Below, piece by piece: positions 2,801-50,964 of a DNA stretch of 64,000 bases. Source of the stretch: Owenia fusiformis (Eukaryota > Annelida > Polychaeta > Sabellida > Oweniidae). Location: positions 27,047,248 to 27,111,247 of the forward strand of contig CAIIXF020000003.1 in the NCBI GenBank assembly GCA_903813345.2, in the 5' to 3' direction. The translations under genes and the position numbers were made by a program. Below the pieces are notes generated by a model, which was not told the origin of the DNA, ran no database searches, and worked only from the letters and a program-made list of their open reading frames with translations. Position 1 is the first letter of the stretch. Every line of letters starts with the position of its first letter.

Positions 2801-3150
2801 AATTCAACAAATCTGGAAGATTTATTTTTTCAAGAAAAAGTTTACTATTGAATTGCTAAATGGATAGGCGCACGGTATGGTAGAATATGTTAGGTTTTCT
2901 GGGATTTTTTCTGAAACGATACGCATCTAAGGTATGAGATCTATTAAAAAAGGCGCAAGGCCATCAACAGGCACAAACCAACGTTTTTGCTATAAATCAA
3001 GCAACAATGGTCTGGACGACCTGTAATAAATACTTGTAAGTGATGTTATCATAACTAAATTAATGTCATTGCTGAATTTATAAAATAAGTTTCCATATGT
3101 GAAATAAAAAATAATCGAAAATAATGAATTTGGGACGGAGGGGGGAGGGG
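2795..3150 (-). repeat. dispersed repeat, copy 2 of 3 (inverted)
   Basis: Reverse complement of 3370-3735 over about 350 bases; for example gcgcacggtatggtagaata here against the matching complement near 3640. With copy 3 it forms a large inverted repeat around a 220-bp centre that holds the poly-C tract. Confidence 0.85.
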
Positions 3151-3165
3151 ACGGAGGGGGGAGCA
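3133..3165 (+). repeat. G-rich tract, possible G-quadruplex
   Basis: Several runs of three to six G (gggacggaggggggagggga) lie close together; a related run is at 2766-2782. The sequence would suit a G-quadruplex, which is inference only. Confidence 0.5.
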
Positions 3166-3337
3166 ATATGTATATAAGACATGATTAGAGATGTTTCGCG
3201 ACTTTAAGTCCTTTTACTCCAAATGTCCCCATTTTTCAGTCTCCAGGGGTATATCATCCAGTTTCTTACTAAGTTAATGAGTTCATTTTTCAAATACAAG
3301 AATTCGTGTGAAGTTGTTTCACTTTATAGAATTATTA

Positions 3338-3364
3338 CCCCCCCCCCCCCCCCCCCCCCCCCCC
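3338..3364 (+). repeat. poly-C run of about 27
   Basis: An uninterrupted C tract at the inner edge of copy 3 of the dispersed repeat. Its length may be unreliable, as homopolymers of this size are hard to sequence. Confidence 0.95.
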
Positions 3365-3369
3365 TTCGT

Positions 3370-3735
3370 CCCCTCCCCCATCCATCCCATTTTAATTATT
3401 TTCGATTATTTTTTATTTTACGTACGGAAACTTATTTTATAAATTCAGCAATGACATTAATTTAGTTATGATAACATCACTTACAAGTATTTATTACAGG
3501 TCGTGTAATCCATTGTTGCTTGATTTATAGCAAAAACTTTGACTTTTGCACGTTGGTTGCGTTGCGCCTTTTGTAATAGATCTCATACCTTAGATGCGTA
3601 TCATTTCAGAAAAAATCCCAGAAAACCTAACATATTCTACCATACCGTGCGCCTATCCATTTAGCAATTAAATAGTAAACTTTTTCTTGAAAAAATAAAT
3701 CTTCCAGATTTGTTGAATTTCCTAGCATGTGCAGT
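3370..3735 (+). repeat. dispersed repeat, copy 3 of 3
   Basis: Same orientation as copy 1 and inverted relative to copy 2. Shared blocks include aattattttcgattatttt, taataaatact complement, and cttgaaaaaataaatcttcc. Confidence 0.85.
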
Positions 3736-7616: not shown

Positions 7617-9121
7617 CAGGGTGGTCCAAAAAAGTGAACCCCTGCAACAGGCTACATTTTTCTTAATACATGCATGAATTGGCTCATATTATCACATGTT
7701 GTAGAGAAAGGTCTAAAATTTTGGTTGATGCCATAATTTATTCTCAGTCTTAAATTTTGAAGAAATTACAAGTGTTTAACAAACATGCCTGTAATTAGAT
7801 ATTGTACAAAATTTTACAAATGTGATTCACGGAAATTGTTGAACCACATAGGATGATCTTAAACAGCTTTCAGTTAGAGATACAAGTTTAAAACCCTACC
7901 ATATGACAAAAGGGACACTATTCAAGCAGAAAACACATTTCACACATTCATTGATCATTTTAAAGGATTTTTAACTGTTCAACAGTTCAGGGGTATGTTA
8001 CCTACACCAACAGTTAGAGGGGGGCCTCTTATGGAAGGAAGTTGCCACCTATGACCAGGAATCTGATAACTCCTTCATCAAATATCTCTTAAAAATCAAA
8101 AGAAAATTCAATATTCAATGTTTTGAGACATATATCATTAGAACTGGTCCATGATTTATGAAGATATTGACATTTCAAGATCATATAGGGGTATGCTCTT
8201 GATTTCACTGGAAAATGTTTTCGTCTGTGGAAGCTTAGCACATCTCTTTGGATCACAATAACTTTGCAACTAACAAATGTAGGATGCTAGTTTAAAGCCA
8301 TAATGTGCAGGATTTAAAATTGAACAAAGTCAGAAAATATTACTTCTTTAAGACTGCAGCTTAAAAATTTCTCCGGGGAAAGGTGTTTAAAGGGTGACGC
8401 ATATCGTTTAGCAAATCGAACGCTCGTTTCTGGTGTTGCTCACCGTTTAGTATAAAAGGCCCGATCCCGGAATAATACTCAAGGGTTCACAGGTTTGAGG
8501 TCGTTGTGTCAACACCTCTAACTGTTATATAGCATAAGTATATTATAGATCGTCACACATTTATAAAAGGGTGATTTTTGTTTTGACAAATCAATTCCAC
8601 ATTTATGGGTGAAGTTTCAGGATCTTCTATTTGTGTACAATAAGGAAAAAATGGCATCTAAATTTCCCCATAACGTAATAGCACACAGCTTGGCATATGA
8701 TATATGTATTCTTTGAACGCAATCACTCTTTGGATAACGTTTTCAAAATCATTATAAACGGATTACTTTATCTCAAAGACAATTTCAATAAACTGGATTT
8801 TACAGAACTCCCCTTATTTCATAAAAATGGACTGATCCAGTTGATTCGCCTGGAGCCGCCATATTGTTTTTATACGGGATGCTAATCGGAACCCTTTAAG
8901 GGTTGAAGAATCGCGGATATTGAAAATCACAATTTGTCCATTTTCAGTAATGTTTGGTTGGGGCTTATAATTTCTGCAAATTTCAAGACTAAGAAAAATG
9001 TATGGTACCATCATAAATTTTAGACCTTCCTCTACAACATGTGAAAATAAAAAAGAATTCCTGCAAGTAATAAGGGAAATATGGCCAGTTGCAGGGGTTC
9101 ACTTTTTTTTGGACCACCCTG
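7617..9121. mobile_element. mariner-like element with long imperfect TIRs, 1.5 kb
   Basis: Termini are cagggtggtccaaaaaagtg on the left and the complement of cagggtggtccaaaaaaaag on the right, both followed by gaacccctgcaac. TA stands outside each end (7615-7616, 9122-9123). The similarity between the two halves goes on inward for about 150 bases (tcacatgttgtagag, aaggtctaaaatt) and then fades. The interior has only short frames with no transposase motif, so the copy is non-autonomous. It interrupts an older transposase remnant. Confidence 0.8.
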
Positions 9122-9123
9122 TA

Positions 9124-9410
9124 GGTGAAAAAGTGAGGTGTGTGGATTGGAGTTGTCATCCAGGGTCCAGTTATCATTTCTAAATCTCTTCTGCCACCTC
9201 ATAATTGTAGTTCTATCTGCTGTATACTCCTTACATACTTTCTTCATGGTAGCATACGTTTGTGTGGCTGTGAAGTATGAAATTGGGCCACCGAACGCAA
9301 GGCCTTGTTATCAGGTTTGAGAATTGCAGGCATTTTTGCAATTTCTTGATTGTTACTGCATTTGAATTTGTGACTATTGAACTGAGCCATGAAACCATCA
9401 CAATACTAAA
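9124..9410 (-). pseudogene. transposase HTH-region remnant, interrupted
   Basis: Read on the minus strand, the longest intact piece is MKKVCKEYTADRTTIMRWQK followed by RFRNDNWTLDD (from 9247 down). The pattern of basic helix, TTIMRW and RF resembles the second DNA-binding helix-turn-helix of Tc1/mariner-type transposases. Upstream, a second frame starting MAQFNSHKFKC (near 9390) gives the first part of the domain, separated by a frameshift and stop. The catalytic DDE/D region is absent. The 3' side is cut by the 7617-9121 element at a TA, and the frame resumes at 7614. Confidence 0.55.
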
Positions 9411-13859: not shown

Positions 13860-15850
13860 AGTTTAACACATCTCAGTATAGGCAAAATTAAAATTCATTA
13901 AAGTTTCATCACTTTAGCATGTGTACATTTGCTGGCCTTCTAATATTTTGCCAATAGATTTGTTAGGCTTGATTGCAAATTCTTATGAAATATATGAGTG
14001 TATGGTTTCAATGTACTGTACTCCCGATATTTTTCGCGTGCAATTTAGTTTCGTGCTTTTCGCGATTGTGTAAAAATCACGAAAATTAATAGTCGCGAAT
14101 ATCGCCAATTAAAGGCTGAGGTGCAACATGCCATTGACTAAGATCTAGAGATTGTAAATCTTATCCAAAGTATATGATATTGGGTAGATGGCAGTTCTTA
14201 AATATATGATAGACACCAATAATTCAACATCATAATTTAACCTTTTCCATTAAATATTCCCTGTATCAAGCACAAAAACGTATTTACACCCTTTACTAAA
14301 ATGGCAACCCCTCTATCACGCACTTGTTGTACATAAACATTTTCGTCGGTTTTAAATCATCGAGCTGTTGCCTAAGATAATGTACGAGTATGTTAAGATG
14401 AATATTCAAAGCTTTGTCATATTATATGATTTAATTATTCTTTTTCAAAAATGACTTCCAACCTTTCTTGTTGTTAAATCATTGCATTTTCCTGGATGTA
14501 GCAGATTGGCATTAGTAAAAACAATTAAGGCATTAACATGCTAAATGTTACCACCTGTCATTTGTTACAGACGCCGAACGCCGAACAACGTCCACAAAAA
14601 AGTTTGAGACTTTAACATTATGTCACGACTTGAGGTGGTGACATAACAAAGAATGATAACCTATAATGCCTAAGAGTAGATATTCTCTTATTGTTTTCAT
14701 CTTCGGATAGAACCATACACAAGGCCTTATCAAATCAAAATAAAAAAACATATCAGATAGGAGTTGCCGCTTTCAATAACAGCATATAAAATGAATGCAA
14801 TCATCGGGCATGGAAATTATTGGAAATTGTCTTGTGGCGTTATGATTTATGACTATTGACTTAAATAAAGGGATATAATGAAGCTTAATAGTTCGTTCTG
14901 CTTGACTTCTTTCTTCGATAATATTATTCCATCAATACGATCTCTGCGTGGATGGGTAGATAGATACGCGCGTTTGTCTGCTAGTGCGTAGCCACACAAT
15001 AACAATCATAACGACATCTTGGAAGTTTTTTTTATATTCATATTCTGACCCCGAACCCAATGCCATTGCCAATGCCTTGGAACTCTCGCATTTACATGTT
15101 TATGTTTAATAGAATGAAAGGTGTGCACAAATATTGGAACTTGCTTATGTTTGGAATTTTACAAATGGAACTTTTGTTGAGTCAATGATTTGAGATAAAA
15201 CTTTTAATTTTGAGTTTTCAAACGTTCAATCGCTTAGGGTAAGGGTACGACGGATTTGGGCGTGTCTTTACTCCTTTTCTCGTATCTCGCTAAATAAAAT
15301 AGTTATTGTCTACTGATGGCCAAATGTTAATATATGATCTTTACATCTTTATTCTGCGATTTGGTAGCAATGTAAAAATTCTAAAAATGTGAAATGTGTT
15401 TCGAATTATAAAATGTTTACAACTGAACGTTCTGAAAAGTGTTATCACAATTAAAAGCAACAGGTTGTCCGTTTTCTCCCACACATCAAATAAGCCAATT
15501 GATTTTACACAAATCTAGAAACTAGTAACAAGTATTCAGTGTTACAATTTGATGTATATTATATTTTAGGGTACCATGCAAAACGGAAAAATAAAATAAA
15601 TAATAAAATATAGATTCACCAATGTAAGGTGAAATGTTTTCTCCAAACACGGCACTGTATTGCCGACCTCCAGCCCCGAACCCGACCCCACTACTAATAA
15701 GATGTTGCCGCCCTTTCCGTCAAACTTCAATCAAGCAATGACGTCACCATGCAGTAAATAAAGTCAGTTTTCTCTTTGTTAATCTTTTATTTAGTTTCAG
15801 ATAAGAAATAGACAGGTATATTAATAAAAGATTTTCCTTACAGGTAAATT
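13860..15850. other. intergenic; two short repeat copies
   Basis: Contains a small ttcgcgaatat-type hairpin tract at 14030-14105, and at 14545-14640 a tract with ttaccacctgtcatttgtta and cagacgccgaac that recurs at 60178-60310. Nothing else identified upstream of the first gene. Confidence 0.5.
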
Positions 15851-15856
15851 TATTGC

Positions 15857-15865
15857 TATATAAAT
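15857..15865 (+). promoter_or_regulatory. TATA box of the upstream Cys-rich gene
   Basis: TATATAAAT lies 93 bases before the ATG at 15958. A start of transcription near 15888, about 30 bases downstream, would give a 5' UTR of about 70 bases. Placement and consensus support it; no transcript data. Confidence 0.55.
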
Positions 15866-15957
15866 ATCAGCGTTCATCCCGACGCTGCACAGTATACGTT
15901 AAGAACCGAGATTGAATTTTAAGTCTCGATTTCCAGATTCACAAGACGCCGTTCAAC

Positions 15958-15975
15958 ATGCTTTATTTCGTCACA
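15958..15975 (+). CDS. gene 1 exon 1 (coding part)
   Basis: ATG followed by six codons and a strong donor (ACA then GTAAGTAA). It encodes the start of the signal peptide; the 959-base intron after it is in phase 0. Confidence 0.65.
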
Positions 15976-17169
15976 GTAAGTAATTATTTAATCTTAATTA
16001 AAATCATTCTTGAATTGATTAAATGCTTAATCGTATCTTTGGTTATTTTCCTCGCTATGCTTATGTATTACTAAAGAATATTCATGGTTACTAGAGGTTT
16101 GTATATATTAGAATATAAATTGCTGACAAGTCATATGGAAAGATTTTTATCAACACGTATACAATTTACCTGATCGGGACAAATTCAGAGCAGACATTAA
16201 GAATATTTTTTCATTAGTTTATTACAATTCATATCTCAATGTTTTAATTTACGTTCTATGAATTCTTCTGATGGAATTTTTTCCTTTACGTTTTTAAGGG
16301 AAGTAAGATTAATATATAAGTAAACAACGGCATCAGTTAAAGTCAAAATGAAGAAACTGACTGGGATTTGGCTGAAGAATATAAACTTGAAAAAAATACT
16401 TACTAGTAGTTAAATCAACTTTATTCTCCAAATTCAATATTCTGAAAACAAAATTGAAATGTTATAGTTTAAGAATATGATGTTTAAATAAATCACACAA
16501 TTTAGGAACATTTAATTTAAAAAAGTTCAAACTGTCATTTTCAAGAATAAACATCATAATTATTCTTTAAAAACTGCTCTTCTCGGGAAATACTTAATTT
16601 TTTTTAAAATGCAAAGTTTTTGTAAAATTTCGTTTTTCCAAAAATTAGTATATCCATTCTAATTATTTCATTTGTGCTGCTGTACGCTATAGCCCATGTG
16701 GCTGATTAATTGGATACACAGGTGCGTCTAATATAGTCATTTTATTTATTTAGGGGATTCTTTTTTCTAGCACATGATACATTTTTAGATTGTGACATGT
16801 TGTATGTTTTGATATTTTTATGATAAACAAAATAAATAAATTAAATAAATAAATGTTATAAATTCATATTCAATCATAAATAAAATCATGTAATGACAAC
16901 CATTTTAAACCTTCTTAAATTATTGTATTTCCAGGCCTTAGTCTTAGCAGGCTGTCTCGTGAATGCAGACCCGATTAAGAAGTGTAAAGGTGAATATGAC
17001 ATGGCCGGGAAAACCTTCCCGATTGTATCAGATAAAAAGTGGGTCGAATATGACGAAGTGAGTGATGTAAAAAGAGACTGCTATTGCCAAGAGTACAGAG
17101 AGATTCTTTTTGATGACTGCGGAAACCATGACTACTGCAGTACTCCTACTAAAAGATGTAAATGGAGAG
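15958..17169 (+). CDS. secreted cysteine-rich protein, gene 1 (3' end not found)
   Basis: Two exons are visible: 15958-15975 (MLYFVT, donor GTAAGT) and 16935-17169 (acceptor TTTCCAG, donor GTAATA). Joined in phase 0 they give a signal peptide, MLYFVTALVLAGCLVNA, then a short secreted domain. Its six cysteines (23, 55, 57, 68, 74, 81) have the order C-W-CxC-EY-C-C-C-W. The spacing nearly equals that of gene 2 at 21379, and both genes share CKW next to a phase-1 donor, so they are paralogues. The early CxxxxG, W and CxC arrangement weakly recalls beta-microseminoprotein-like domains; I do not claim that family. If the donor is not used, translation stops at 17193-17195, giving a 93-residue form ending INSYII. 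No third exon homologous to that of gene 2 was found before 21300. The product is probably extracellular and disulphide-bonded; function unknown. Confidence 0.65.
16935..17169 (+). CDS. gene 1 exon 2
   Basis: Acceptor TGTATTTCCAG. The exon encodes the end of the signal peptide (ALVLAGCLVNA) and the six-cysteine domain up to KRCKWR, leaving one base (phase 1) before GTAATA. Confidence 0.7.
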
Positions 17170-17484
17170 GTAATATTAATTCATATATTATATAATTTCA
17201 AGTTACATTCTCCCCTTCATTGGCAGGTCAACTGTACATGTTGCTTGCAACTTTGTCATCCCCTATAGATCTGATTCTGCCTTTATACAACTTCACCAAT
17301 TGATAACATGTTGTTGATCTTTTGGGAGATATTATATTTGAAATTGTAAGGAATATATTGCTTGGTCAGTTACACATGTTGCTTGCAATTTCCCTATTAG
17401 ATCTGATTCTGCTTTTAAACACAACCACTCATCCTAGTGCAAATGGTAGAATTCCATCTTCTCAATGTAATTATACATATATAG

Positions 17485-17757
17485 GCGTAGTCAAGGGGGG
17501 TTCGATGAGTGCGATCGCACCCCCCCCCCCCCATAACCAATAGAAATAAAAGCATGAGAATGAATGCTTTTTATTTGAAGCTTCTAGCTCAATTTTGAAG
17601 CAAATTGCATCAATATTTGTAAAATTCAAAATAAATCTTATTTTGGGCTAGTTTATGCCACAATCGCACCCCCACCCCTGACTGAAAACCGAAATTTTTG
17701 GGCGATCGCACCCCCCCCCCCCCCCCCTGACTGCAAGCTGGCTACACCCCTGATATA
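17485..17757. mobile_element. CCCC-rich miniature element
   Basis: Starts ggcgtagtcaagggggg and ends ctggctacacccctga, an imperfect inverted pair. Inside are three gcgatcgcacccc or caatcgcacccc motifs with poly-C runs, and tttttatttgaagcttctag, which recurs at 62595. Same family as 62486-62670. Confidence 0.65.
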
Positions 17758-18124
17758 TGTTTACAATCGGGTGTTTGCAGACGACATTTTTTTCTCGTTT
17801 GTTATGTGAGCATTTGGGTGAGACAAGACAATTTCACCATCATAAAGGTTATGCTGATGTCAAATACTTTTAAGTATAAATAACGTAACTGGTGGATATT
17901 CAAAGAAAGTAAGGTAGAACAGGTTACGATATTATTACCTTTTAAATCTAATCAAACAAATACCGCGGACTGATATATGACGTCAATGTTGTGCCTTCAT
18001 CTGATGCTGGCTAAATACACCAAAATTCAAAATGACCTATAGCCTATACCATCAAGAGACTATGTGATAGCATCAAGGACTAAGCATGTGGGAATTGATT
18101 GATAAACCTTCTGTAATAACATAG

Positions 18125-18245
18125 GATAACGATTACACATTCAAAAGAATTGTTACACATTCCAAAGAATTGTTACACATATACAAAAGAATGGTTGTTA
18201 CACATTCCAAAGAAGCGTTGCATATTCCAAAGAAAAAGTTAATGT
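18125..18245 (+). repeat. short tandem repeat, cacattccaaagaa-type
   Basis: About five imperfect copies of a 20-27 base unit built from ttacacattc and caaagaattg. Lies in the ground between gene 1 and gene 2. Confidence 0.7.
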
Positions 18246-18423
18246 TACACGTTCGTCAAAATGATATCACATTAATTGAAATCTACATGTAAAAAATTAC
18301 ATCTAGAAATCTGGTTCTAAATAGTGTTTATCAACTTTGAAAAATTAATTTTTTTTTGAAAATGTGACTTCTAGGTCGGGGAGATTCCCCATTGACTCCA
18401 TGTTATAAAATCACATTTCACAA

Positions 18424-18718
18424 CAAGGAGGATTGGCTCCCAGAGTGCAACATCGATATTCTGCCCCATATATGGGTATGTCGTGCTACAAAATTTGAAT
18501 TCCAACGACCGCCATTTTGTTCACTTCAACATTTGAATCGTGAATTTTGGTCTTATTTCCCAACGAAAAATTCCAAAACTCACAAGAAATGATCGAGATA
18601 TTGGTTCGAATATTTTGAACTGTTTATTTTGAATTTATAATCGGTTATAATTTCAGTAAATTACGACAATTCGGCGTTTTCATTGTTGGAAAATATCGAC
18701 TTCGATTCTGGGAGCCAA
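18424..18718. mobile_element. miniature element with ggaggattggctcccag ends
   Basis: Left end aaggaggattggctcccaga, then gcaacatcgatattc; right end is the complement, gaaaatatcgac... tgggagccaatcctcctt. About 25-bp TIRs and a 295-bp length. Related copies are at 31610-31980 and 37153-37510. Confidence 0.75.
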
Positions 18719-19391
18719 TCCTCCTTGATTTCACAAGTAAAATCTTTTCTTGTATTGCACAGATATTTTCTTTTACAAGACATACTTTAATTTGTACCAC
18801 TATCAGATACAAAAGGGGAATTTGAAAATTGAACCACTAAAACTGATGAATATTTAAGTTTCAGGGAACTTTCTAATACCCTGCCATGTTATCTGAGGTT
18901 ATCTGCCCGAATTAGCCACCTAATGATGAAACTGACAACTACCTACTCGCATCTGGGTTATTGTTCTAGTATATTTGAATATTTAATTTTGCCCTTTTTA
19001 AAATCTCGGTGTTATTTTTCTAAAAGAATAACAAATATAGATCTAGAGTACTCTTGAAAATGGGATAAAATAAAAGTGAAGAAAAGTTATTTATACACTA
19101 ATTATCTCTTTACTTTTCATCGTTTAATAATTTATTCACTTTTTTCATTCATCGAACTGGAAAAAAACATGTTGTATGCGTTATAATAAATATGTTATAC
19201 TTAGAATAATTAAGATATACATACAGTATATCATACAGCGTTACGTAGAGACTATAAAAATATTATCAATGGTTATAGGTTGATGGATTCAAGAATGTTA
19301 CTATGAGTTGATGGAGAAAACAATGAATTTCTTCAATTTTTCATAAAAGGTTTTGCGAGTATATAACTGATAAAGATTATTTAGAATTTAA

Positions 19392-19668
19392 AGTTCATGC
19401 CGCAGTCACATTTGATCTATGGCAACCGTACGGCTACCCTGCGTGCAGAGTCTAGTTAAACTACAAGAAGACGAAGCTCTCTTTTAAGAAGTGAGGTCAA
19501 ACGAATGCAAAGGGTACCGTACGGCGGTCGTATCTTCCCAAAATTGAGAGAAATATGCAGCATTAAATATAGGGATTAGCAGTTCGATGTAGATTTTCTA
19601 TATCGATTTTGTAAACCTACGGCCGCCGTACACCCGCCGTAGAGCAAATGTGACTGAGGCTTTATCAA
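19392..19668. mobile_element. miniature element with cagtcacatttg ends
   Basis: TIRs are gccgcagtcacatttgatct and the complement of gcctcagtcacatttgctct. The interior has tacggctaccctg/ggccgccgta-type GC patches. A shortened relative, sharing the aaaatcgatatagaaaat block, is at 56522-56655 in an intron of the receptor-like gene. Confidence 0.75.
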
Positions 19669-19669
19669 C

Positions 19670-20560
19670 ATATTGATATGGACAGTTTATCATCAAGCTA
19701 AATGCAATGCAAATATTTTTGACGTGATTTAATCTGTGAAATAGGACGTATTTATATCTTAGTGTTTATATTGAATAAAACTGGCATGTTTGTTATGTAA
19801 GACATATTATATTGACACGATGTCTGTTTTCAGTATGACAGGGTAAACCAGGATAATGTCTTCCAGGATTCTTGAAATGTGTATTGTTCATTTTAGAGCA
19901 TTTTTAGATCCCGTCTGGTGTTTGTTCTAACATACATTTTGAAGCTTTTGCCCTTTTATCCTATCATTAATATTAACTAATTACGTTGTGTGGTTCGAAT
20001 GGGCCGTCTTGCGGGCATATATTTATACTTAAAAATATGATTAATCCAATGTAATATTTCATTATACATATAAAAATATGATTTATAATATGTACCAATA
20101 TGTGGTATAATCAATGTACATAAAAAGTATTTTTGAAACAAAAGCATGATTGATTTGTACCTACAAATAAATGCAAATAAGATTGGTCGATAAATCGAGG
20201 ATTATTGATATGACTGCGTCTGGGGCTGATTAATTAAAATGGTATTTTTGTCTCGGAATAGAATAGCAAACAAATGAAAAATGTGACACGTCTAGATATT
20301 ACATAAATTGAGTTATTTGTTTGAATTCTGCCAATATTTTAATCTCAATTTAATTTCCTATCTGCGCACTGTACTGACATGTTGCTATCTTGGCAACTAC
20401 TAATTCGCCATCAGCACCATTTAGTTAACGATACCACGAAGATGTTTATACTTAACATACAAGCTAAAGGAGACAAAGTCCCAAGGCCAGGTTAACCTGC
20501 TAACGATGCAAAAAGACCAGAGTGTGACGCACAATATAGTATCCTGAAGAAATAAGCTAC
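19670..20560. other. no gene seen; AT-rich
   Basis: Low-complexity AT-rich sequence with aaaaatatgatt repeats near 20030-20090. I searched it for a third exon of gene 1 (a phase-1 acceptor followed by a Cys-rich frame) and did not find one. Confidence 0.5.
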
Positions 20561-20632
20561 ACGGGTGTTCCAGCCTCTTCGCTATGTTACTCTTTTATCC
20601 CAAAGAGGACCGATACAAACCCAGACAGTTAC

Positions 20633-20696
20633 ATGAAATTGATTCTGCTGACAGCCCAACTCAATGTGGCCCTGGGCCAAGGAAAAAGATGTGCCC
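20633..20696 (+). CDS. possible isolated signal-peptide exon
   Basis: ATG at 20633 opens MKLILLTAQLNVALGQGKRC, shaped like a signal peptide plus the start of a mature chain. A GTAAGG donor follows at 20697 in phase 1, the same phase used by both neighbouring genes. The frame also stays open upstream to about 20600. No partner second exon was identified, so it may be a relic of a third paralogue or chance. Confidence 0.2.
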
Positions 20697-21312
20697 GTAA
20701 GGGAATGATAGTTATAAACCAGCCATAGTGGATCACTGTTCACTGCCTAACTCAGAAAAAAGCAAACGGATTTAGGGGAATATATAAGCACAAATGCCAA
20801 AGGGAAGGGTGACATGAAATGAAATGCTTATGCTTCTGAAATACCCAATGACGAATCGGAGCACTCACGTTTTGACACCCACGTGCACGCACTACGTGCC
20901 ACGTATCCTGTTCAAATTGCAGAAATGAATATTAGATGTCCATAAGGAAAATGCAGAAAATTTACATGTGACACGTAACATTAATTTATCCTGATGCATA
21001 CTTCGAAACAGGTGTTATCAACTTTTGTAATAATGGAAGATATAAAACTGATAATGCAATTTTTATATTCAAACACTTAACAAAAGGAAATTATATTAAA
21101 AGGTTGCATTTGTATCAGTTAAGAAACAATAGAAAACAAAAGATATAATTGTAGATACGAAGCTAATAGGGGAAAATATTACAAATTGCTCGCAGCTTTG
21201 ACTCATTAGCAATTTAGATTTTCATACAACTTGTTATTAAGGCCCATTTATGTATACATTATACAATAAATATATTATATTTTGCCTGTAATGATTCCTT
21301 GATAAATGCTTG

Positions 21313-21319
21313 TATAAGA
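21313..21319 (+). promoter_or_regulatory. possible TATA box of gene 2
   Basis: TATAAGA, 60 bases before the ATG at 21379. It is a weaker match than the element of gene 1 and is supported by position only. Confidence 0.3.
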
Positions 21320-21378
21320 TAATCGAATGGCTCTTTTACTTATTGGACTTGAACTGTAAACACATTAAGGGATTTAAA

Positions 21379-21411
21379 ATGAAAATAGCAATAACTTCAT
21401 TCAAGATATGG
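21379..21411 (+). CDS. gene 2 exon 1
   Basis: MKIAITSFKIW, then donor GTAAGT at 21412 in phase 0. It is chosen over the internal ATG at 21844 because it supplies the n-region of the signal peptide and parallels gene 1. Confidence 0.7.
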
Positions 21412-24400
21412 GTAAGTCCTTTAAAACACTTTATCTTTAATTAGAAAAATTATCTTGTACTAAATAGTTTTTGAAACAGACGATTAGAAAAGGTGATAAC
21501 ATTTATGGACATCGTAACTGAAGTAAAAACTGACGAGAAATGTTTCGAAATACCATTTAATACCAAGTACAAACGACACTACAGTACTCGCATAACATTT
21601 TCACATTCATGATTTCCTCATTCATAAAATGACCAACAATACACACATGTTAAACGTAGGCTACTTTATCATTGATCATAAATGCATCAAGTCAATTTTG
21701 CTCTGTAAACTTCTGCTCGAAACAGCAGCAAAAATGTGAACAAAAAAGCTCATGGGCTGGCAAAGAACGTCTTTATAAATGTGAAGTAAATCATGGCCTA
21801 ATGTTACTTTACGATATACATGTAGCTGTTACTGGTCCTCATTGTGACCATGGTGGCCCTCTCTAGTCAGCAGAAGGAACCAAAGGCACAGAAGCGAATC
21901 AAAAGACGAATCAAACGGTGTTTGGGAGAGCATAATCAGGCGGGTATAACTAAGAAAATCGGAGCCACATGGACAGAGATAGAAGAAGCGAGCGGAATAT
22001 CTGCAGAGTGTCGCTGCATCGAATACAAAGAATTGCTTTGGTTCAGCTGTGATGTTCCGGGCTGTAGGGACGCTACAAAGAAGTGTAAATGGCAGGGTAA
22101 GTGGAACTGCGCATGCGCTTGGTGCTCAACATCCAAAACTGAAGTTCGAGGTCGAAATTGTTCGATAGGAAAATATTTTTAGTTTTGGAGGGACGCCGGG
22201 CCGGCCAAATTCCCGGCTACCTGTTCTGCCTGACTACCTCATGTTGTGGCACGGTAAAGTTAAAAAGACTTTTCCTTGGAGCATGCCAAAGGTCAAGCAT
22301 TGTCCAAATAATGTCAAATTCTGAAAATATAAGTTTTTCATTACAATATAAATAAAAATAGACATACTTTTTAGTCTCGTGTGTTTCTTAAAAACCTAGA
22401 TCCTAATATCCATGTAATGCTAATGACTCCAATATCAACTCACTTGTCTACCACAATCGGTAACTTTAAATTCTGCATGATTGGTTTAGTGCGGATCTAA
22501 TAAATTTTCACTTAAAGGCAGAATCAGATCTAGAAACTTTAAAAATTGTTTGCTTATCGGCGCGGTTTCATTATTTTCAATAGAATCTAGAATTAGTGAC
22601 CTTGGGTGAATTGCAGGTTATATAAGAGCATGCAGTTATTTGAAATAGTGTATGTGTGAAAGTATTTTAGCAATTGAGACAAAGGAGGAGGGAAATTAGT
22701 GCAACAGATTTTGGACAGTCATATGTTTGATTTTGGCCATTTCCTGGGGATTTAAACAGGTGCATTTATTAGGCCAATGCATTATCTCCAGGAAAATCAC
22801 TTCTAGAGATGACAAAATAATTTCGACTTTGAGACAGGGTAGATGCAAACAACCCACCCACATGTTTTTTCTGAAATGTTTTCCTGATTTTCAACCCCTT
22901 CCATCCCTGCTTTTTTAATTTTTCTTGCATCAATATGTTGCGTTTTGACACACAGTTAATCCCTTAAAAGGAATAAATGATTCCTTTTAGATAAAGTGGA
23001 AAACAATATATCCCATGTTATTTTCCCATAGGGAAAATCATTGCTTTCAGCTAAGTTTGGTCACCCATAATGGGTATCTTTAAAACCCCTGAAGGAATCA
23101 CTTATTCCTTTAAAGTGGTTAACTATGTGTCAAAACGCAACATATTGATGCAAGAAAAATTAAAAAAGCAGGGATGGAAGGGGTCGAAAATTAGGAAAAC
23201 ATTTCAGAAAAAACATGTGGGTGGGTTGTTTGCATCTACCCTGTCTTAAAGTCGAAATTATTTTATCATCTCTAGAAGTCATTTTCCTGGAGGTAATGCA
23301 TTGGCCTAACATATGCAATTGTTTAAATCCTCAGAAAATGGCCAAAATCCAACATATGACTGTCCAAAATCTGTTGCGCTAATTTCCCTCCTCCTTTATC
23401 TTGTACAATAGGCATTTTTATGAATGTAGCTTTCTATAAAATTAAATGAATATATACTATAAGTTATTGAATGATTTGAAGTGCAATACAGGATATATTC
23501 TGTTCGAGAAATTCCGTATTGGAACGAGACGAAGTCGAGTGCCAATACAGAATATCGAGACAGAATATATCCTGTATTGCACTTCAAATCATTCAATAAC
23601 GTTTTTATCGTGTTATCCTCTGTATTGCTACTGAGATTGTCTCCTCCGTACCAATAGTTTCTGTATTGCGACGGAGATGATCAACGCGGACAATCTCAGT
23701 AGCAATACAGATTGGTACAGCACAAGAACTGACCAATCAGAGGGCTTCATTTTACAGATCATACGATAATAGCTTGTACCCATTATGGTTCGCCTTCTTG
23801 CATTATGTGTATTGGTTAGTACAGTACATGCACTCATGCTTTTAAATTTCCGATATAGCAGGATAGAGGATTTTTATTCCTTGAATAACAGTATCCATTG
23901 CAATTATTCTATATATACCATTATTGTAATACATAGTCTATAGAAAATAGAATGAAATACTTGTAAAATAATAGAAGTAATAGTGATAATAAAAAGGTAT
24001 TTGGTGTGCTAAACTTGCATTATTGATTCCACTCAAAATCCCAGATCCGCTCAAATAACAAGCGAGAACATTAATTGATCGTGTCACACATTATTTCCTT
24101 GGTGATATCTCCTACTGCAACAAACTATCAAATGTTGGTCCTACTCTCTATTGATTTATATGGTGACCTAATTACAGTTATTTTCCTTATCATTTATACA
24201 TAGTCGGGGCCGGTAAGGGCCGTCAAGAAAGGGGACCATAATCCCCAGGGGACAATAATTTCTTTCACACCGGGGGTCCTAAAATCCTTTTATTCTCAAC
24301 GTTTGCTTTGCCATTGAACTCCATGAAGCATCATGACCATACTGAGTCAATTCATTATGATTTCCTGAATATTCATTTTACTCTTTGCAGTACAAGTTGT

Positions 24401-25645
24401 CAAGTTGGCAACGCATCAATTTCACTCAATTTCAATTCGTAGATGGCTGTTCCGGATTAGGTACATTCTCCCTCTGAATCTAATATTAACTTTCATTTAC
24501 TAATAGTTTACTCATATTATCAGATATTATTTCACCTGGTGTATATTTGTCTGTTTTTGGTTGAATATACAAGAGGTGTGAGTGAATAGAACAGCCAACT
24601 TGAAGGCAACTTTAGATTTGAATTTTATGTAATCTACATATGACCTTGGATGGGTTGTTGGCTATGGGCTTTGTATAAAAGACCTCCTACCTCATACCCA
24701 CCTACCCACCCACCTACGTGGAACCTGATACAATCATTGAAGGGTTCAATTTCAAAGGTTATTAAATCTCAAAATAGCTCAAATTATTAACATTTCTACA
24801 ATCCTGGCTTTACTTTATGACTAGACAGATGACAGATCCATAAATAAAGGCATATGGATGCATTTTAATATGTTATGACGACCGCGAGCATAGGTCCAAC
24901 AAGCCAGACAAAGAAATTGAAAGAAATTAGAAAGTGTGCTAAATTCGATGCTCCGAGTGGGAATCGAACCCAGCTGGGATGTAGTAGCAAGGGTCGTTAC
25001 AAATGTATAATTCATCATACTAAGATCTTTAAAATTGAACCTTTCAACGACTGTATTATGTCCCACGTACGTGGGTAGGAGGGTATGAGGTAGGAGGTTC
25101 TTTATACAAAACTCTATATAATGTAATGCGGCTATATGAAAAGTGTGTTCTTGTTGGCTAAGGCTTGAATTTGACACACCCTGCCTAGCTATGTGTGATT
25201 GAAACATAATGTTAAATGTTCAAAACATCTACATGTACACTGTGGCAGCTACGTAAATGTTATGATTTCGACAATTACCTTCTAACTTCACCGCACGGAA
25301 AAGGTAAAAAAGACTTGACCCAAGTGTTAATCACATTTTTTTCTTTTTTAAGGTTGCGTAACGGAGGTGGGAGGAGAATACGAGCCCTATTATCCTTTGG
25401 ATTCCAATGTTGTCAAGCCTAAGTTCGAGATTATAACCTACCCCCACAGATGCTTATGTAAATGTCTCAATTCATCTGAGGCCAGTCAAAGCAGCTACAT
25501 AGCCGATGCACCACAAGACCCGTTCGTCTGGGACTGCGATTGCGACCAGAATTGGTATTACTATGATGAGCCTATAGAAGAAGACAAACAGAATCAGAAT
25601 GAGATTGAGGAAAGGAAGCGAAGGAAAAGAAGCACAAATGTGTAA
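21379..25645 (+). CDS. secreted cysteine-rich proprotein, gene 2 (complete)
   Basis: Three exons, 21379-21411, 21826-22096 and 25353-25645, join in phases 0 and 1 to give 198 residues. Residues 1-25 are a clear signal peptide with the core LLLVLIVTMVAL, formed only when exon 1 is spliced to exon 2. A basic stretch follows (33-42) with two RIKR furin-type sites directly before the first domain cysteine. The exon 2 domain has Cys 43, 73, 75, 86, 91, 98 and matches gene 1. Exon 3 adds Cys 103, 135, 137, 139, 163, 165 (CLCKC and CDC), one N-glycosylation sequon (N141), an acidic/Gln/Tyr-rich stretch, and a terminal RKRRKR before STNV. Twelve cysteines allow six disulphides. It looks like a processed extracellular factor. 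I do not recognise the family; function unknown. The 3.3-kb second intron contains two foldback elements. Confidence 0.78.
21826..22096 (+). CDS. gene 2 exon 2
   Basis: Acceptor CATGTAG. Encodes the hydrophobic core of the signal peptide, the KRIKRRIKR processing stretch and the six-cysteine domain up to KKCKWQ, then a phase-1 donor GTAAGT. Confidence 0.8.
22677..23401. mobile_element. near-perfect palindrome (foldback element), 725 bp
   Basis: Arms of about 310 bases: aaaggaggagggaaattagt at 22681 returns as its complement at 23380-23398, and gttgcgttttgacacac at 22936 as the complement at 23127-23145. The centre (22990-23085) is itself partly symmetrical. Short frames in both arms are mirror images and not genes. 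It lies in intron 2 of gene 2. Confidence 0.9.
23450..23775 (+). mobile_element. palindrome-rich miniature element, copy 1
   Basis: Built of two hairpins: gaagtgcaatacaggatata faces its complement 90 bases on, and ctgtattgctactgagattg faces caatctcagtagcaatacag. Ends in a single-copy tract (tgaccaatcagagggcttca). The inverted partner is at 26925-27195. Confidence 0.8.
24672..25115. mobile_element. foldback element with about 90-bp arms
   Basis: Left arm tttgtataaaagacctccta through ctacgtggaa and gggttcaatttcaaag; right arm (25022-25115) is the complement in the same order. Between the arms lies a tRNA-like repeat (24877-25010). It ends 240 bases before exon 3 of gene 2. Confidence 0.75.
24877..25010 (-). 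repeat. tRNA-like SINE or element core (A box lost)
   Basis: On the minus strand, a B-box-like ctgggttcgattcccactcg lies between tgtaacgacccttgctacta and the tract tttcaatttctttgtctggc. Both flanks are shared with 36882-37092, which keeps the A-box half. This copy has lost it, so it is not a functional tRNA. Confidence 0.55.
25353..25645 (+). CDS. gene 2 exon 3 (last coding exon)
   Basis: Acceptor TTTTTTAAG. With the carried G the first codon is GGT, giving GCVTEVGGEYEP and the Cys-rich tail to the stop TAA at 25643-25645. No canonical AATAAA follows closely; the first is at 26037. Confidence 0.8.
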
Positions 25646-26042
25646 AATGACTTATAATAAGATTTGATAAAATACGTTTTATATGCATAGATAACATTGA
25701 AACATGGGTTCATTTTGTTGTTGATCCTTGTGCTTTCCTTAATTTTCCCCTTTCTATCCCGATCTGTCTTCTCCCGCCCAAAGGGATTACTTCAGTTAGA
25801 CTTGCACTTCATTTACAAGGTGATACATATTACCTAATTCTGGTGCCAATGTAATGGCCATGACATAACAAGGAAGACTTGAAGGTCGAAGGTCACTAGA
25901 ACGTAATAATATTATATTTACAAAATTGATTTTGAGGCAAATTTTTGTAAGGGTCAGCTCTATCGAGGATACGGTCAAGGTCAACTGAAAGCTTAACTAT
26001 CGAAAACAGGTATGCAAATGATTGCTTTAATTAAGGAATAAA

Positions 26043-26203
26043 GACCGAGATTTTATGATTTATGGCGTAATATATGACCGAAAATTTTATTCTGTTCATT
26101 GTTAAAAGACCGAAATCGCGTAGCGATTGAGGTCTTTGGCAATGGCCAGAATAAATTTTGAGGTCATATATTGACATAAATCATAAAATCGAGGTTTTTG
26201 TTA
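26043..26203. mobile_element. palindromic miniature element, 160 bp
   Basis: gaccgagattttatgattta on the left faces taaatcataaaatcgaggtt on the right, and ggcgtaatatatgaccgaaa faces the matching tgaggtcatatattgac. Forms an almost complete hairpin. Confidence 0.75.
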
Positions 26204-26924
26204 CGATTCTAATAAGATAAACAGACAAGAAACACGATTTTTTGCATTTATGAATTTTATTGGTCAAACATACTCCAATATAGACCAGTAAATCAATTGT
26301 TCTAGCCAGTATGACGTCACGTATCATATTAGAATTTGTTTTAAGGATCGTTGAATTCATCGGGGTCATTAAAGATTTGGGTCATACGTTTTGATGAGAA
26401 AGAACTAAAGATCAAAACAAATTTGTTGGTATTTGGTATTTTTAAAAATCATTTTAAGATGAAGAATGGGTAATGTCAAATATAAGACAGTGTCTAATGA
26501 CGATCAAATGACGTCATTAAACAGGATGGGTCAAAAACATCCATAATGTTTGATGCTTTATTATATGGTAAATTCTCGTACAGCCCATGACTTTCAAAAT
26601 TGTTTTTTGAAGATATATGGGTCAATTATGCAGTTGTTCCTAATTCCATTTATAACAAACACTATTGCATAATTTACTCCTGTATCTTCAACAAATATAT
26701 TTCATATATCTTGGATCATTCTGAAAATATCTAATCTATAAAACATGAGTACTGGGTATTAGGTGAAATGATTAGAGCCAGTACAAATGGTTTATATCAT
26801 TTAAAACCCACACTGACTCTTATGAAAGGTAAACAGTCCATGGTCCATTTAAACTTACACTGTACTTTTTTAATGTAAAAATTGATTTCTAAATGCATTG
26901 ATTATTCAATAATTTTACTAATCG

Positions 26925-33316: not shown

Positions 33317-35746
33317 CTAGATTGGTAAATTGAACAAAGTTCAATTTAAGACTCCAGATTGATTTACTTGAGTAAAGAGCTGAGTAAGTAACTGAGTAGG
33401 AAGCTGAGTAAGTAGATGATTAAGTAATTGAGTAAGTAGCTGAGTAGGTAGCTGAGTAAGCAGCTGAGCAGGTAGCTGAGTAAGTAGCTGAGTAGGTAGC
33501 TGAGTAAGTAGCTGAGTAGGTAGCTAAGTAGGTAGCCGATTAGGTAAGTAGGTAGGTAAGTAGGAATTTTTGACCGGAAGTCGGATTGAAATTTGGTTTG
33601 CAGATTTGGATTCCTGAGAAAATTCTACCCTTAATTCATAACTCATAAGTTAAATTATGAGAACTTTTTATTTTGACCTACTTTACGAACACCATATCTC
33701 AAAAGTGGGTCAAAATACTTTCTGACGGCAAAAGGCTTTTACTATTAGCACACTCTTTGCTACCTGTATACAAAATGTTGAAGCAAATCCTAAAGGTGTA
33801 GTGCCAGAATCGAAAAAATAAGGAAAAACTATGAATTTGACCTAGATTTTGACCTAGGCATTTTGGTGTCCAAATATTGAAACTAGGTAGCTTTTGAGGT
33901 CCCCTTCTTTTATCGGAATTCATTATCTTAAGCTGTACTCAATCTATATCTCGTATTTTACACTTCAAAAAAATCTTTTTTCCTTGACCTTCTATCAGGA
34001 TACCATCAGATCGATATTCCGAAATTTCAAAACGCCATAACTTCCGAACCGGATGTCGAATCGAAATTTGATTTAAAGATTCGGATTCCTGACAAAATTC
34101 TACCCCTAATTCATAACTCATACGTTAAATTTGGCGAATTTTTATTTTGACCTACTTTTCGTACACGCCATAACTTTGGAACCGGAAGTCGGATCGAAAT
34201 TTGGTTTGCAGATTCGGATTCCCGAGAAAATTCTACTCTTAATTCATAACTCATATGTTAAATTTGGAGAATTTTTTTATTTTGACCTACTTTTCGGACA
34301 CCATATCTCAAAAGTGGGTCAAAATACTCTCTGACGGCAAAAGGCAAACACTATTAGCACACTCTTTGCTACCTGTATACAAAATTTTGAAGCAAATCCT
34401 AAAAGTGTAGTGCCAGAATCGCAGAAATAAGGAAAAACTATGAATTTGACCTAGATTTTGACCTAGGCATTTTGGTGTCCATATATTGAAACTAGGTAGC
34501 TTTTGAGGTCCCCTTCTTTTATAGGAATTCATTATCTTAAGCTGTACTCAATCTATATCTCGTATTTTACACTTCAAAAAAATCTTTTTTCCTTGACTTT
34601 CAATCAGGATAACATCAGATCGATTTTTCTCGAAATTTCAAAACGCCATAACTTTCAAACGGGAAATCGGATCGAAATTTGGTTTGCAGATTCGGATTCC
34701 TGACAAAATTCTACCCCTAATTCATAACTCATACGTTAAATTTAGAATTTTTTTATTTTGACCTACTTTTTGGACACGCCATAACTTCCGAACCGGAAGT
34801 CGGATCGAAATATGGTTTGCAGATTCCGATTCCTGACAAAATTCTACCCCTGATTCATAACTCATAAGTTAAATTTGAAGAATTTTTTATTTTGACCTAC
34901 TTTTGGGACACCATATCTCAAAAGTGGGTCAAAATACTTCCTGACGGCAAAAGGCTAACACTATTAGCACACTCTTGGCTACATGTATACACGATTTCGA
35001 AGAATATAATTAAAGTGTAGTGTCAGAATCGCAAAAATAAGGAAAAACTTTAAATTTGACCTAGATTTTGACCTTGGCATTTTTGTGTCCAAATTTTTAA
35101 GCTAGATGGCTTTTGAGGTCCCCTTCTTTTAAAAGCTTCCATTATATTTAGCTGAACTCAGTCTATATTTCGTATTTTTCACTTCAAAAAAATCTTTTTT
35201 CCCATTGACTTAACATGGGCACCAAATTTAGCGATTTTTGAGCTTTCAAAACGATATAACTTCCGAACCGGAAGTCGGATCGAAATTTGGTTTTCAGATT
35301 CGGAATCCTGAGAAAATTTACTACAAGACCAGTAGCGTGGACATTGAATTGGGAGAACTTTTTTTTGGACCTCGTTTTCGGACACTGATATCTCGAAATC
35401 GGTTTGAGATATCAAAAAACTAAATCGACCTGTTTTCCCCTACTTTTTTATGAGGAACACAATGAAAAAAACCCGGATTGAAAATATTGAAGGACGACCG
35501 AGAAAATTGAAAAAAGTGACAAAGTACTGGATTTGACCTAGTTCTTGACCTTTGACCTAGATAAAAATTTGACCTAATTTCCCATCATCCCAGATACATT
35601 CCCTAGTTGATCATGTAAGTAGCTTAAAGTAAGTTCTTCTAGTTGGTGAGAAATCTTGTAAGGAGGAAGAGGAAGAAAGAAAAATAATAATAATAAGAAG
35701 AAAACTGGCAAAAGCAATAGACTCCAGATTTTCATCTGGAGTCTAA
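33317..35746 (-). mobile_element. Helitron-like unit A
   Basis: Read on the minus strand, the 3' end has a hairpin (AAATTGAAC, loop, GTTCAATTT), six bases, then CTAG followed by T. The 5' end starts with a hairpin of AGACTCCAGAT and its complement. The arm sequence also stands beside the 3' hairpin, an asymmetric terminal repeat as described for Helentron/HINE elements. The body holds a 12-bp minisatellite (gtagctgagtaa, 33375-33560) and three units of about 600 bp containing ccgaaccggaagtcggatcg. No RepHel protein is encoded; non-autonomous. The 5' TT instead of TC is atypical. Confidence 0.65.
33375..33565 (+). repeat. 12-bp minisatellite, gtagctgagtaa
   Basis: About 15 imperfect copies of gtagctgagta(a/g) in unit A; other units carry ggata-type repeats at the matching place. 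Confidence 0.85.
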
Positions 35747-36881
35747 TTAGCTCAATACTTCAATACGACGTCCATCTCATTCGCAGTTCGTTCAGGTCGC
35801 ACCACGACGGTGTGCAACGTTGTATAACGCGTCCCTTAGTCTAGAAGGTCATCATGACCTGATTACAGAACGGTATGGTCGCCATCGAATTTTGAATCGA
35901 TTCAAAATTCTAAATCACATTCCCCGTCCGAGAAAGTCCATGAAGTTCGTAAACAGACTGTAGAACGTTGTAGCTTCGTTCATTCCGTTCGCAAACAGTT
36001 TAAAACCAGTTTTGAAGAACGCATTGGGAACTTTCTTGGTGTGATAGCTATTTTTGCTAACTCGTTGATAAATACGTTCTTAATCACGTTTGCAATTAGT
36101 TCTACCTCGTTCTCAATACGTCCTCAGACGGTTCAACTCGTTGTAAAAACGTCCCTAGTAAGATTGAAATACGACGGTTCCGTTCGTAGTACGTCCAGCT
36201 CGTCGTTAGTAGGTTGTCACTCGTTCTAATTGTAGGATGTGACGACCAAGAAAACATTTTAAGCATGTTCCAAGTTCTACAGGACCTACCCGTTCGAGTA
36301 CGTTCGATGCCCTTTTTCGAGAACGCAGTGAGAAGTAGTTTGGTGTAATAGTAGGGTTATACTTATTACCAATTACATAGTGAGCTGAAAAACACTTGGT
36401 GTGGATAAATGTTACTTCCTGCGAAAGCTATGTGGGTTTTTGATATAAGTTTCAAAATCTAACATGGCTCTCGAAGTGAGTAAGGTAAATGAGCACAGTC
36501 AGTTTGAAATACAATGACATTTTCGAAGAGCAACTACTACAGTTTTATATATCCATATGTGTAGCACCTAATAAGAAACTGTAAAATTAGCAAGATTAAT
36601 TATTTAATAATCTGATAATGTAGCCTATCTAGCGTGTATCTAAATAGCTTTTCCCAAGATAATGCTAGATAAGGCGGCACCATTTGGTACTAGACTATTA
36701 AAATCCATATAAATGTAAAAAAAATGAACAACCCATGAGGTTAATGATCATTAGGCCTAGTCTTTCTCGTCATTTGTTGTTAATAAAGACAATTTTTTGT
36801 AGTTTTCATTTAGAACAAATATAAGAAACCAATTGTGTGAAGCATATACGATATCACATCATTTAGTAACATATGGAAGAA

Positions 36882-37092
36882 TCTGTAATGACCCGAGGGC
36901 GCCCCAGGGGAATAACTAATTAACTAATGACTATAACGAGCATAGTGTAACAAGCCAGATAAAGAAATTGAAAGAATCGAACTTAGGACCCTTGGATCCA
37001 AAGACTGATGCTCTACCAACTGAGCTATAAAGGCTTAAGCCACTACAGCTGGGCCGTAGTAGCAACTTGCTATCAAGGGTCGTTACAAATCC
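36882..37092 (-). repeat. tRNA-like element core
   Basis: On the minus strand an A-box half (tatagctcagttggtagagc) and a B-box half (ggtcctaagttcgattc) lie in tRNA order. The acceptor arms do not pair and the ends are tgtaacgaccc and its near complement. It is a SINE or a miniature element that carries a tRNA-like core, not a tRNA gene. Relative at 24877-25010. Confidence 0.6.
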
Positions 37093-37152
37093 ATTACTTT
37101 TAAAAAGAAGATTACAGTGACATTAGTCATATTAATAAATATAGTATATTTA

Positions 37153-37510
37153 CAGAGGAGGATAGGCTCCAAGAACGCAATCTCGATATTTTCCAACAAT
37201 GAAATTGTCGTTATTGTCTGACAATAAACTTGCTATAAACAATCATAATTAGCAATCCAAAAGATTTGAGCTGAGTGATATCTTGATTACTGCTTGTGTG
37301 TTTTGATTTTTTGTTATGTAATAAGACCCCAACACTAGCGATTCAAAATCTGAAGTGAAAATGGTGGTATAATTTTGAATTTTGCAATCAAGAGATCCTT
37401 CAAGACCGTGCTTGTTCAAAGGTTTATTTAATAATCGGGGCTTAGTATGTGTATCGAACGAATCGAAAGAATATCGAGATTGCATTCTGGGAGCTAATCC
37501 CCCTTCCAAT
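37153..37510. mobile_element. ggaggattggctcccag-family element, intact copy
   Basis: Left end gaggaggataggctccaaga then gcaatctcgatattttcc; right end is the complement (gaatatcgagattgcattct, then gggagctaatcccccttcc). Length about 355 bases. The frame at 37249-37596 is element sequence. Confidence 0.75.
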
Positions 37511-37699
37511 AACCAACAATGTTGATACTTGGGGCTCTCATTTCTCCATCTCATTCCGACAATTATTTTAATAATATACAGAAATAATGAATTCAATGGA
37601 GAAATGATATGGCATTTACACTCATTAATTCGTTTCTAAACCCCAACTAATTATTCAATCTCAAAATTAACAATCTTCCGTACAGTCCGTAAGGGAGAT

Positions 37700-37915
37700 C
37701 TCCCGTGGGATATTCTACCGCACTTTTGCTTTGGACCTCAGATCTCTGCGATCTACCAAGCATGGTCGGGTGTCGGATACCCCATCTTTTTAGGCAAGGG
37801 GCTATCTACCGCACTATTCGCCTTGGGTGTCAGGTCTTCGCGATCTACCAAGCATGGTCGGGAGTCAGATACCTCATCACCCCTTTCTGTCATGGGAGCT
37901 ATCTACTGGGCATAT
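37700..37915 (+). repeat. tandem duplication, about 91-bp period
   Basis: gatctaccaagcatggtcgg occurs at 37750 and 37842, each within ctaccgcact...gtcggatacc/gtcagatacc. The open frames here follow from the repeat and have no start or splice support. Confidence 0.75.
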
Positions 37916-38430
37916 CCAGCTATATGTACAGGTGTCAGATACCCCAACTATTACGTAATACCTTGTTACGTGACACATGATCCTAGCTTGAGAACGAACG
38001 TGAGTTTGAATGCTATTGATACATGTTTAGTTAGCATCATGTATCAAGTGCCGCCCCAAGCCAAAGTAAATTAATGTTAGTTTTTGTATTTAATTGCTTT
38101 ATTTGTACTTATCTACTGATCAAAATAAATCTGTTATTTAAATATTCTGGTTTTGTTATTTATAAATAGTTGTTTACAAATTATGTAAACATTGTTTATA
38201 AATAAATTTTTAGGTAAGACCACACACTCTGTTCATACATCGTTGAGTACTATAATTGCAAAGACTTGTTCAACGAATCTATACTTTCAGAGAGTAGAGT
38301 TATGAACTCAAATAATTTGAAATATTTTTAAAATAAGATGGGCTTTAGTTGACTTGATCTTTACTTGCTGTATTGAAGACACTAATTCTGCTTTGAATAC
38401 TGCAAGTAATACCCCATGATTAACACTAGC

Positions 38431-38457
38431 TATGTATGTATGTATGTATGTATGTAT
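38431..38457 (+). repeat. (atgt)n microsatellite
   Basis: About six copies of tatg/atgt. Confidence 0.95.
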
Positions 38458-38489
38458 CTTTATGCTAAAAAAGTTGACTTTGACGTCAG

Positions 38490-38830
38490 AATACCTAATC
38501 ATGGGTCGCCAATGAATTTAGATATTGAAGTTTGACCTTGGAATGATAAACATTGACCTTGATCTCGGGTCACCTTAGATCACCTAATCATGGGTCGCTA
38601 AGGGTCGCCAAGGTCCCAAAAAGGCCTCAAAAGGACAATTAATGTATATATTGACCTTGGAATGACCTTGACCAATAAACGTTGACCTTGACCTAGGATC
38701 ACCTAATGATGGGTCGCAAAGGGTCACAACACGCCCCAAGTAGCTTAAAACGGCAACTACATAGATATTGACCCTAAACCTCAGAATGGCCTTGACCCAG
38801 CAGCCCCTGAATGCCTTAAATGCCGTAGAA
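38490..38830 (-). repeat. degenerate tandem repeat rich in TCAAGGTCA half-sites
   Basis: Two to three copies of a 130-150 base unit with cctaatcatgggtcgc, ttgaccttggaatga and cgttgaccttgacct. On the minus strand this gives many AGGTCA half-sites, several extended to TCAAGGTCA, the form bound by monomeric nuclear receptors (ERR, NR5A). Function is not shown. Confidence 0.6.
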
Positions 38831-40470: not shown

Positions 40471-40473
40471 TAA

Positions 40474-50960: not shown

Positions 50961-50964
50961 TATA

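Follow-up and report, generated by a model that had tools for sequence, protein, structure and literature searches.

A tandem pair of genes for cysteine-rich, probably secreted proteins outside Pfam in Owenia fusiformis

The gene pair and its surroundings

We analysed a 64-kb stretch of O. fusiformis DNA (hereafter the window) in which two neighbouring plus-strand genes each carry a six-cysteine module in the second exon. Compared with gene 1, gene 2 has an extra N-terminal basic stretch and a further segment encoded by a third exon. The features of the pair are the following.

15857-15863, plus strand: TATA-like box TATATAA, a pattern match about 100 bases upstream of the gene 1 ATG
15958-15975, plus strand: gene 1 exon 1, MLYFVT, with phase-0 donor GTAAGT
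16935-17169, plus strand: gene 1 exon 2, remainder of the signal-like peptide and six-Cys module, with phase-1 donor GAG/GTAATA (slash marks the junction)
16983-17168, plus strand: gene 1 six-Cys module, inside exon 2
17170-17195, plus strand: (G)NINSYII-stop if the gene 1 donor is read through, in open reading frame 16884-17192
21379-21411, plus strand: gene 2 exon 1, MKIAITSFKIW, with phase-0 donor GTAAGT
21826-22096, plus strand: gene 2 exon 2, signal-like peptide, basic RIKRRIKR and six-Cys module, with phase-1 donor GTAAGT
21919-22095, plus strand: gene 2 six-Cys module, inside exon 2
25353-25645, plus strand: gene 2 exon 3, second six-Cys segment C-x31-CxCxC-x23-CxC, then stop

The splice signals of both genes are standard, the second donor of gene 1 being weaker: three donors read GTAAGT, the GTAATA at gene 1 exon 2 departs from them, and the acceptors of the pair end in CAG, TAG or AAG. 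None of the five exons contains a stop or a frameshift, and the three exons of gene 2 join in frame to give 198 residues and a stop codon. In each gene a short exon 1, ending at GTAAGT, starts a signal-like peptide which is split by a phase-0 intron. An earlier note on this DNA had described this arrangement, and it holds for both genes, the peptides being signal-like by reading. Because of these starts, as read from the sequence, the proteins of both genes are probably secreted. Exon 3 of gene 2 encodes an NSS glycosylation motif and a basic RKRRKR close to its end; in the numbering of the whole protein the glycosylation motif lies at residue 141, and there are four furin-like matches (RIKR at 35 and 39, RKRR at 189 and RRKR at 191).

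Several other features were recorded in the window, in which Rfam and tRNA scans gave no matches (0 and 0). Inside intron 2 of gene 2, an inverted repeat at 22677-23401 with 310-base arms that are 94% complementary is probably a foldback mobile element; a second inverted-repeat pair, with 369-base arms, occupies 2793-3727. Two minus-strand fragments gave matches below the Pfam cut-off. The one at 2246-2566, which weakly matches a zinc-binding reverse-transcriptase model (E 0.00036), is likely to be the end of a retroelement, and the one at 9035-9307, with helix-turn-helix matches including a Mos1-like one, is a likely transposase fragment. A repeat family, both dispersed and tandem, extends over 33531-49925; its many copies, up to 300 bases long and 60-96% identical, are spaced by about 476 and 609 bases. 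A minisatellite array with a 31-base unit lies at 50324-51067. On the minus strand, 53350-59692 is a probable gene for a membrane protein: it has an LDL-receptor class A exon (56296-56415, E 4.4e-9), a transmembrane-like exon (55634-55778), proline/glycine/tyrosine-rich exons (54186-54421 and 53350-53534), and, at 59360-59692 and 58846-58995, exons that look CUB-like by eye and have no Pfam match. A minisatellite at 54529-55074, of about 35 bases with C-runs, sits between two exons of this probable gene.

Relationship of the two exon-2 modules

The modules of the two genes align over 62 columns, with 24 of the 59 aligned residues identical and all six cysteines and two tryptophans conserved. 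Searches between the modules gave E-values of 1.1e-11 and 1.6e-12 by tblastn in the 64-kb window, and of 1.1e-10 and 1.1e-11 by blastp among the 348 window open reading frames of at least 50 residues, where the next best match had 0.61. In the module-versus-module test, and in the tests with 5000 shuffles below unless a shuffle is called full, the cysteines and tryptophans were held in place; none of 2000 such shuffles reached the module-versus-module score (z 7.6). Judged by this likeness, which is far above chance, the two exon-2 modules are homologous.

Details of the alignment largely bear out what had been noticed earlier. The spacing is equal in both modules, with 13 residues from Trp to CxC and 11 from CxC to the next Cys (counted on the alignment), and the phase-1 donor falls at the homologous place, after CKW(R/Q)G, in both genes. 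The order given as C-W-CxC-EY-C-C-KCKW needs one correction: EY does follow CxC in both modules, but gene 1 has RCKW and not KCKW. The proposal that the genes are tandem duplicates encoding a small extracellular protein is supported, the word 'extracellular' deriving from the signal-like starts.

Among the 59 aligned codons, differences at the first, second and third positions number 24, 25 and 38, an excess at third positions with a P-value of 0.028, and at 15 of the 24 identical residues the two genes use different codons. The excess and the codon differences therefore speak for selection on the protein. The same excess, together with the five exons free of stops and frameshifts, counts against the view that one or both copies are decaying or untranscribed; what favours that view is the missing recognisable third exon of gene 1, and we regard it as distinctly unlikely.

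The duplication behind the pair looks old, since comparison of the two loci by blastn (15401-18200 against 20801-26500) yielded five short matches of 13-28 bases and none longer. No further copies of either module were found in the 64-kb window by tblastn, the other matches being short with E-values of at least 0.74. We conclude that gene 1 and gene 2 form a real tandem pair of old date, that they fall outside Pfam, and that their cysteine-rich products are probably secreted.

Exon 3 of gene 2 and the end of gene 1

Exon 3 of gene 2 is credible because it provides a 97-residue open frame with six cysteines, preceded by a pyrimidine tract of 14/14; conservation is not part of this argument. We considered whether it could be a repeat of exon 2 and rejected this, as 336 of 2000 shuffles scored as well in the comparison with gene 1 and 834 of 2000 in that with gene 2. 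At the level of sequence exon 3 is thus not detectably related to exon 2.

By tblastn, no counterpart of this exon was found for gene 1. The exon layout, described earlier as common to both genes, is accordingly shared for exons 1 and 2 and not for exon 3. We also scanned for phase-1 AG acceptor sites from 17230 to 25500 followed by a frame open for at least 25 residues with at least 3 Cys, a filter that would miss shorter or Cys-poor exons. A full pyrimidine tract (14/14) occurred only at 25353, the next best being 11/14 at 17738. Between 17230 and 21378 the scan returned five rows, with starts at 17601, 17738, 18375, 18384 and 18444. The candidates for a third exon of gene 1 were rejected: 17738, with the best tract of the five, has 11/14 pyrimidines, 3 Cys and no likeness to gene 2 exon 3; the frame at 18375, which is Cys-richer, continues into a foldback element with CAAGGAGGATTGGCTCCCAGA common to its two ends; and 20606, which appears with a looser Cys limit only, has 2 Cys. 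Neither tblastn nor the acceptor scan, then, revealed a private third exon of gene 1 in the interval before gene 2, so that only exons 1 and 2 are common to both.

Three endings of gene 1 are conceivable: a one-module protein of 92 residues, a splice to exon 3 of gene 2, or an exon that was missed. According to the first possibility, exon 2 continues past its weak donor to the TAA at 17193-17195. The in-frame extension is short, the donor is weaker than the others, no third exon was found, and AATAAA is present at 17545 and 17630; against this, a donor GT stands at the place homologous to that of gene 2. We see this ending as a serious possibility, though less likely than not, and it is compatible with our best explanation of the pair, as it concerns the end of gene 1 only.

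According to the second possibility, the locus is a single transcription unit with two alternative 5′ parts, both exon 1-2 sets being spliced to the exon at 25353; either of two N-terminal modules would then be joined to the same C-terminal segment. The phases are suited to such an arrangement: exon 3 starts in phase 1, both second exons have a phase-1 end at homologous positions, and gene 1 has no private exon 3 that we could find. It would, however, require an intron of about 8.2 kb spanning the second promoter and the use of the weaker gene 1 donor, and a separate gene 1 exon may have been missed by the filters of the tblastn search and the acceptor scan. We consider it unlikely.

Family relationships and proposed nature of the proteins

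The earlier note had found no named family for these proteins, and this stands: in Pfam, no family scored above cut-off for the whole proteins, the modules or the trimmed modules. Controls run against the same library were recovered with E-values of 3e-11 and 1e-11 (fn1), 2.3e-34 (PSP94) and 6.1e-12 (VWC). Matches were listed to E 10, with the HMMER filters dropping most of those above about 0.1. The weak rows for exon 3 were DUF7457 at 0.07 and 0.12 and BACOVA_00961-like at 0.045; a match to Vpu over the signal peptide of gene 2 (residues 3-43, E 2.3) was set aside as chance. In the PDB, three weak rows obtained with the whole gene 2 protein (E 0.46-0.75) and one obtained with exon 3 (E 0.72) were likewise judged chance. 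The gene 1 module found a single unrelated PDB chain, CT296 (E 0.52), and a profile of both modules found 0 matches in the PDB. In non-animal collections, the two-module alignment gave 72 pattern matches among viral contigs and 46 among genome contigs, with 0 confirmed in either. We recognised no description of this module family in the titles and abstract openings of the literature listed, which is not proof that it is unpublished.

Beta-microseminoprotein had been suggested as the nearest relative. Both this family (PF05825; PDB 3ix0) and VWC (PF00093) share features with the modules. Microseminoprotein is small and Cys-rich with a Cys...Trp...CxC...Cys arrangement, and the stretch GKTFPIVSDKKW before the Trp of gene 1 resembles by eye the microseminoprotein stretch GNKHPINSEW. 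VWC has a Trp before CxC, and the Cys-x4-Cys that follows CxC in gene 2 is as in the VWC of collagen II. The order C-W-CxC-C is the common ground of a divergent microseminoprotein or VWC assignment. However, the Cys-x2-Cys-x-Cys of the VWC and microseminoprotein reference sequences is missing from the modules, which lack the Cys three before CxC and the Cys-Cys pair of microseminoprotein as well as the CxxCxC signature of VWC. Neither a PF05825 profile match nor the CxxCxC...CC pattern was found in the modules, nor a PF00093 match with its CxxCxC signature, and the control of each family matched. Pfam gave no match for the modules, whereas for the microseminoprotein control it gave VWC as well, at 0.0046.

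Scores against reference sequences point the same way. The sets are small, pieces of other hits having been left out: two microseminoprotein sequences of 6 hits, and four VWC segments, one being the collagen II query and the other 3 coming from the 8 stretches of one NEL protein. The summed score of gene 1 was reached by 3973 of 5000 shuffles for VWC and by 3671 for microseminoprotein; for gene 2 the figures were 2251 and 4554. Profiles of the two families gave at most 1.8 bits for any of the three stretches (the two modules and exon 3). This maximum belongs to gene 1 with the two-sequence microseminoprotein profile, where 484/5000 shuffles were as good, the lowest Cys/Trp-fixed count for either family; gene 2 had -1.1 bits with this profile (3117/5000), and for exon 3 with the VWC profile 540/5000 full shuffles were as good. 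The suggestion of microseminoprotein as nearest relative is thus not supported, its scores being no better than those of shuffles and PSP94 not appearing among the Pfam matches of the modules listed up to E 10, and we consider it very improbable that the pair encodes divergent members of either family.

Fibronectin type I (FN1; PF00039; PDB 2cg6) is a better lead, if a weak one and for the sequence of gene 2 only. The best PDB match of gene 2 was human fibronectin, with E 0.036 when the whole protein was the query and 0.064 when it was the module, values that are borderline given that several queries were tried. In this match NQAGITKKIGATW...ECRC of gene 2 is aligned to HEGGQSYKIGDTW...ECVC of fibronectin, a stretch that alone has E 0.36. 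Eight distinct FN1 segments, taken from the 5 of 10 hits with printed alignments, served as a reference set, again a small one. For gene 2, the sum over the segments was reached by 22/5000 and the best score by 0/5000 shuffles; without the module picked by the search these counts were 77/5000 and 462/5000. For gene 1 they were 2501/5000 and 340/5000, with one of the 8 segments standing out (6/300 shuffles as good). The FN1 profile gave 5.2 bits for gene 2 (38/5000 full and 144/5000 Cys/Trp-fixed shuffles as good), 1.6 bits for gene 1 (390/5000 and 885/5000) and -0.5 bits for exon 3 (558/5000 and 3629/5000). For the exon-2 modules, whole or trimmed, PF00039 was not listed by Pfam up to E 10, nor was the second FN1 model, PF23003, and the two FN1 controls matched.

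Both modules contain the core pattern of FN1, with C1, C2xC3 and C4 in order and a Trp before C2, and in gene 2 IGxTW...CxC is in register with the fibronectin module. They differ from FN1 in having two additional cysteines and in lacking the Gly-rich stretch that follows CxC in the FN1 segments; where the fibronectin module has Tyr before KIG in the printed alignment, gene 2 has Lys, and the gene 1 paralogue shows no likeness to the FN1 set. Because gene 1 and the shuffles without the picked module weaken the signal, we treat the FN1-likeness as a lead for gene 2, not as membership.

Structure models add little. The two-sequence model of the gene 2 module had a pLDDT of 53.6 and that of exon 3 alone 56.6. 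The strands of the module model, of low confidence, are 9-14, 17-22, 28-35 and 54-58; the first three come in FN1 order and appear to agree with the FN1 alignment, which does not count for much. With Foldseek, neither model had a fold match with E below 1: there were 121 matches for the module and 233 for exon 3 at E up to 10, the best with E 2.1 and 1.3. The best 50 of the 121 are nearly all protein kinases, and the best 50 of the 233 are a mixture of retinoid-binding proteins, chromodomains and ribosomal chains; we regard both as noise. Factor XII contains FN1, and its heavy chain appears among the exon 3 matches at rank 31 with E 4.8, also noise.

We give an even chance to the interpretation that the products of the tandem paralogues are small secreted proteins sharing one type of beta-rich disulphide module with six cysteines. 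Each module would fold alone with three disulphides, as suggested by the even number of Cys in each. The disulphides of fibronectin type I are Cys1-Cys3 and Cys2-Cys4; the modules may use the same two, with Cys5-Cys6 as the extra pair. Once secreted, the stand-alone module might bind an extracellular partner, and the basic ends of gene 2 might be cut by proprotein convertases or bind sulphated glycans. In view of the four furin-like matches and the glycosylation motif in its predicted protein, we think such processing or glycan binding of gene 2 likely enough to test.

The family of the pair is either lineage-restricted or too diverged for Pfam. As no curated family matches and the best lead, FN1, is weak and one-sided, the two genes look like duplicates specific to their lineage, not like a novel type of system, and their family is probably one of many with such a restricted range. 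Our best reading is a secreted disulphide module confined to one lineage, its fold perhaps a divergent FN1-like one. If the FN1-likeness were true, it would bear on the origin of the FN1 module. One paper describes a fibronectin or fibronectin-like gene as lacking in cephalochordates and non-chordate deuterostomes (PMC5006582), and a review describes echinoderms as being without fibronectins (PMC10381214); given these statements, an FN1 module outside the fibronectin-bearing group would matter. We think it highly improbable that the locus combines a true FN1 module in free-standing small secreted proteins, in an animal outside that group, with two promoters, alternative first modules and a shared C-terminal segment. 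Curated profiles can miss small, Cys-rich secreted proteins of invertebrates, and two clean duplicates in which the Cys/Trp frame is conserved are a seed for finding the family.
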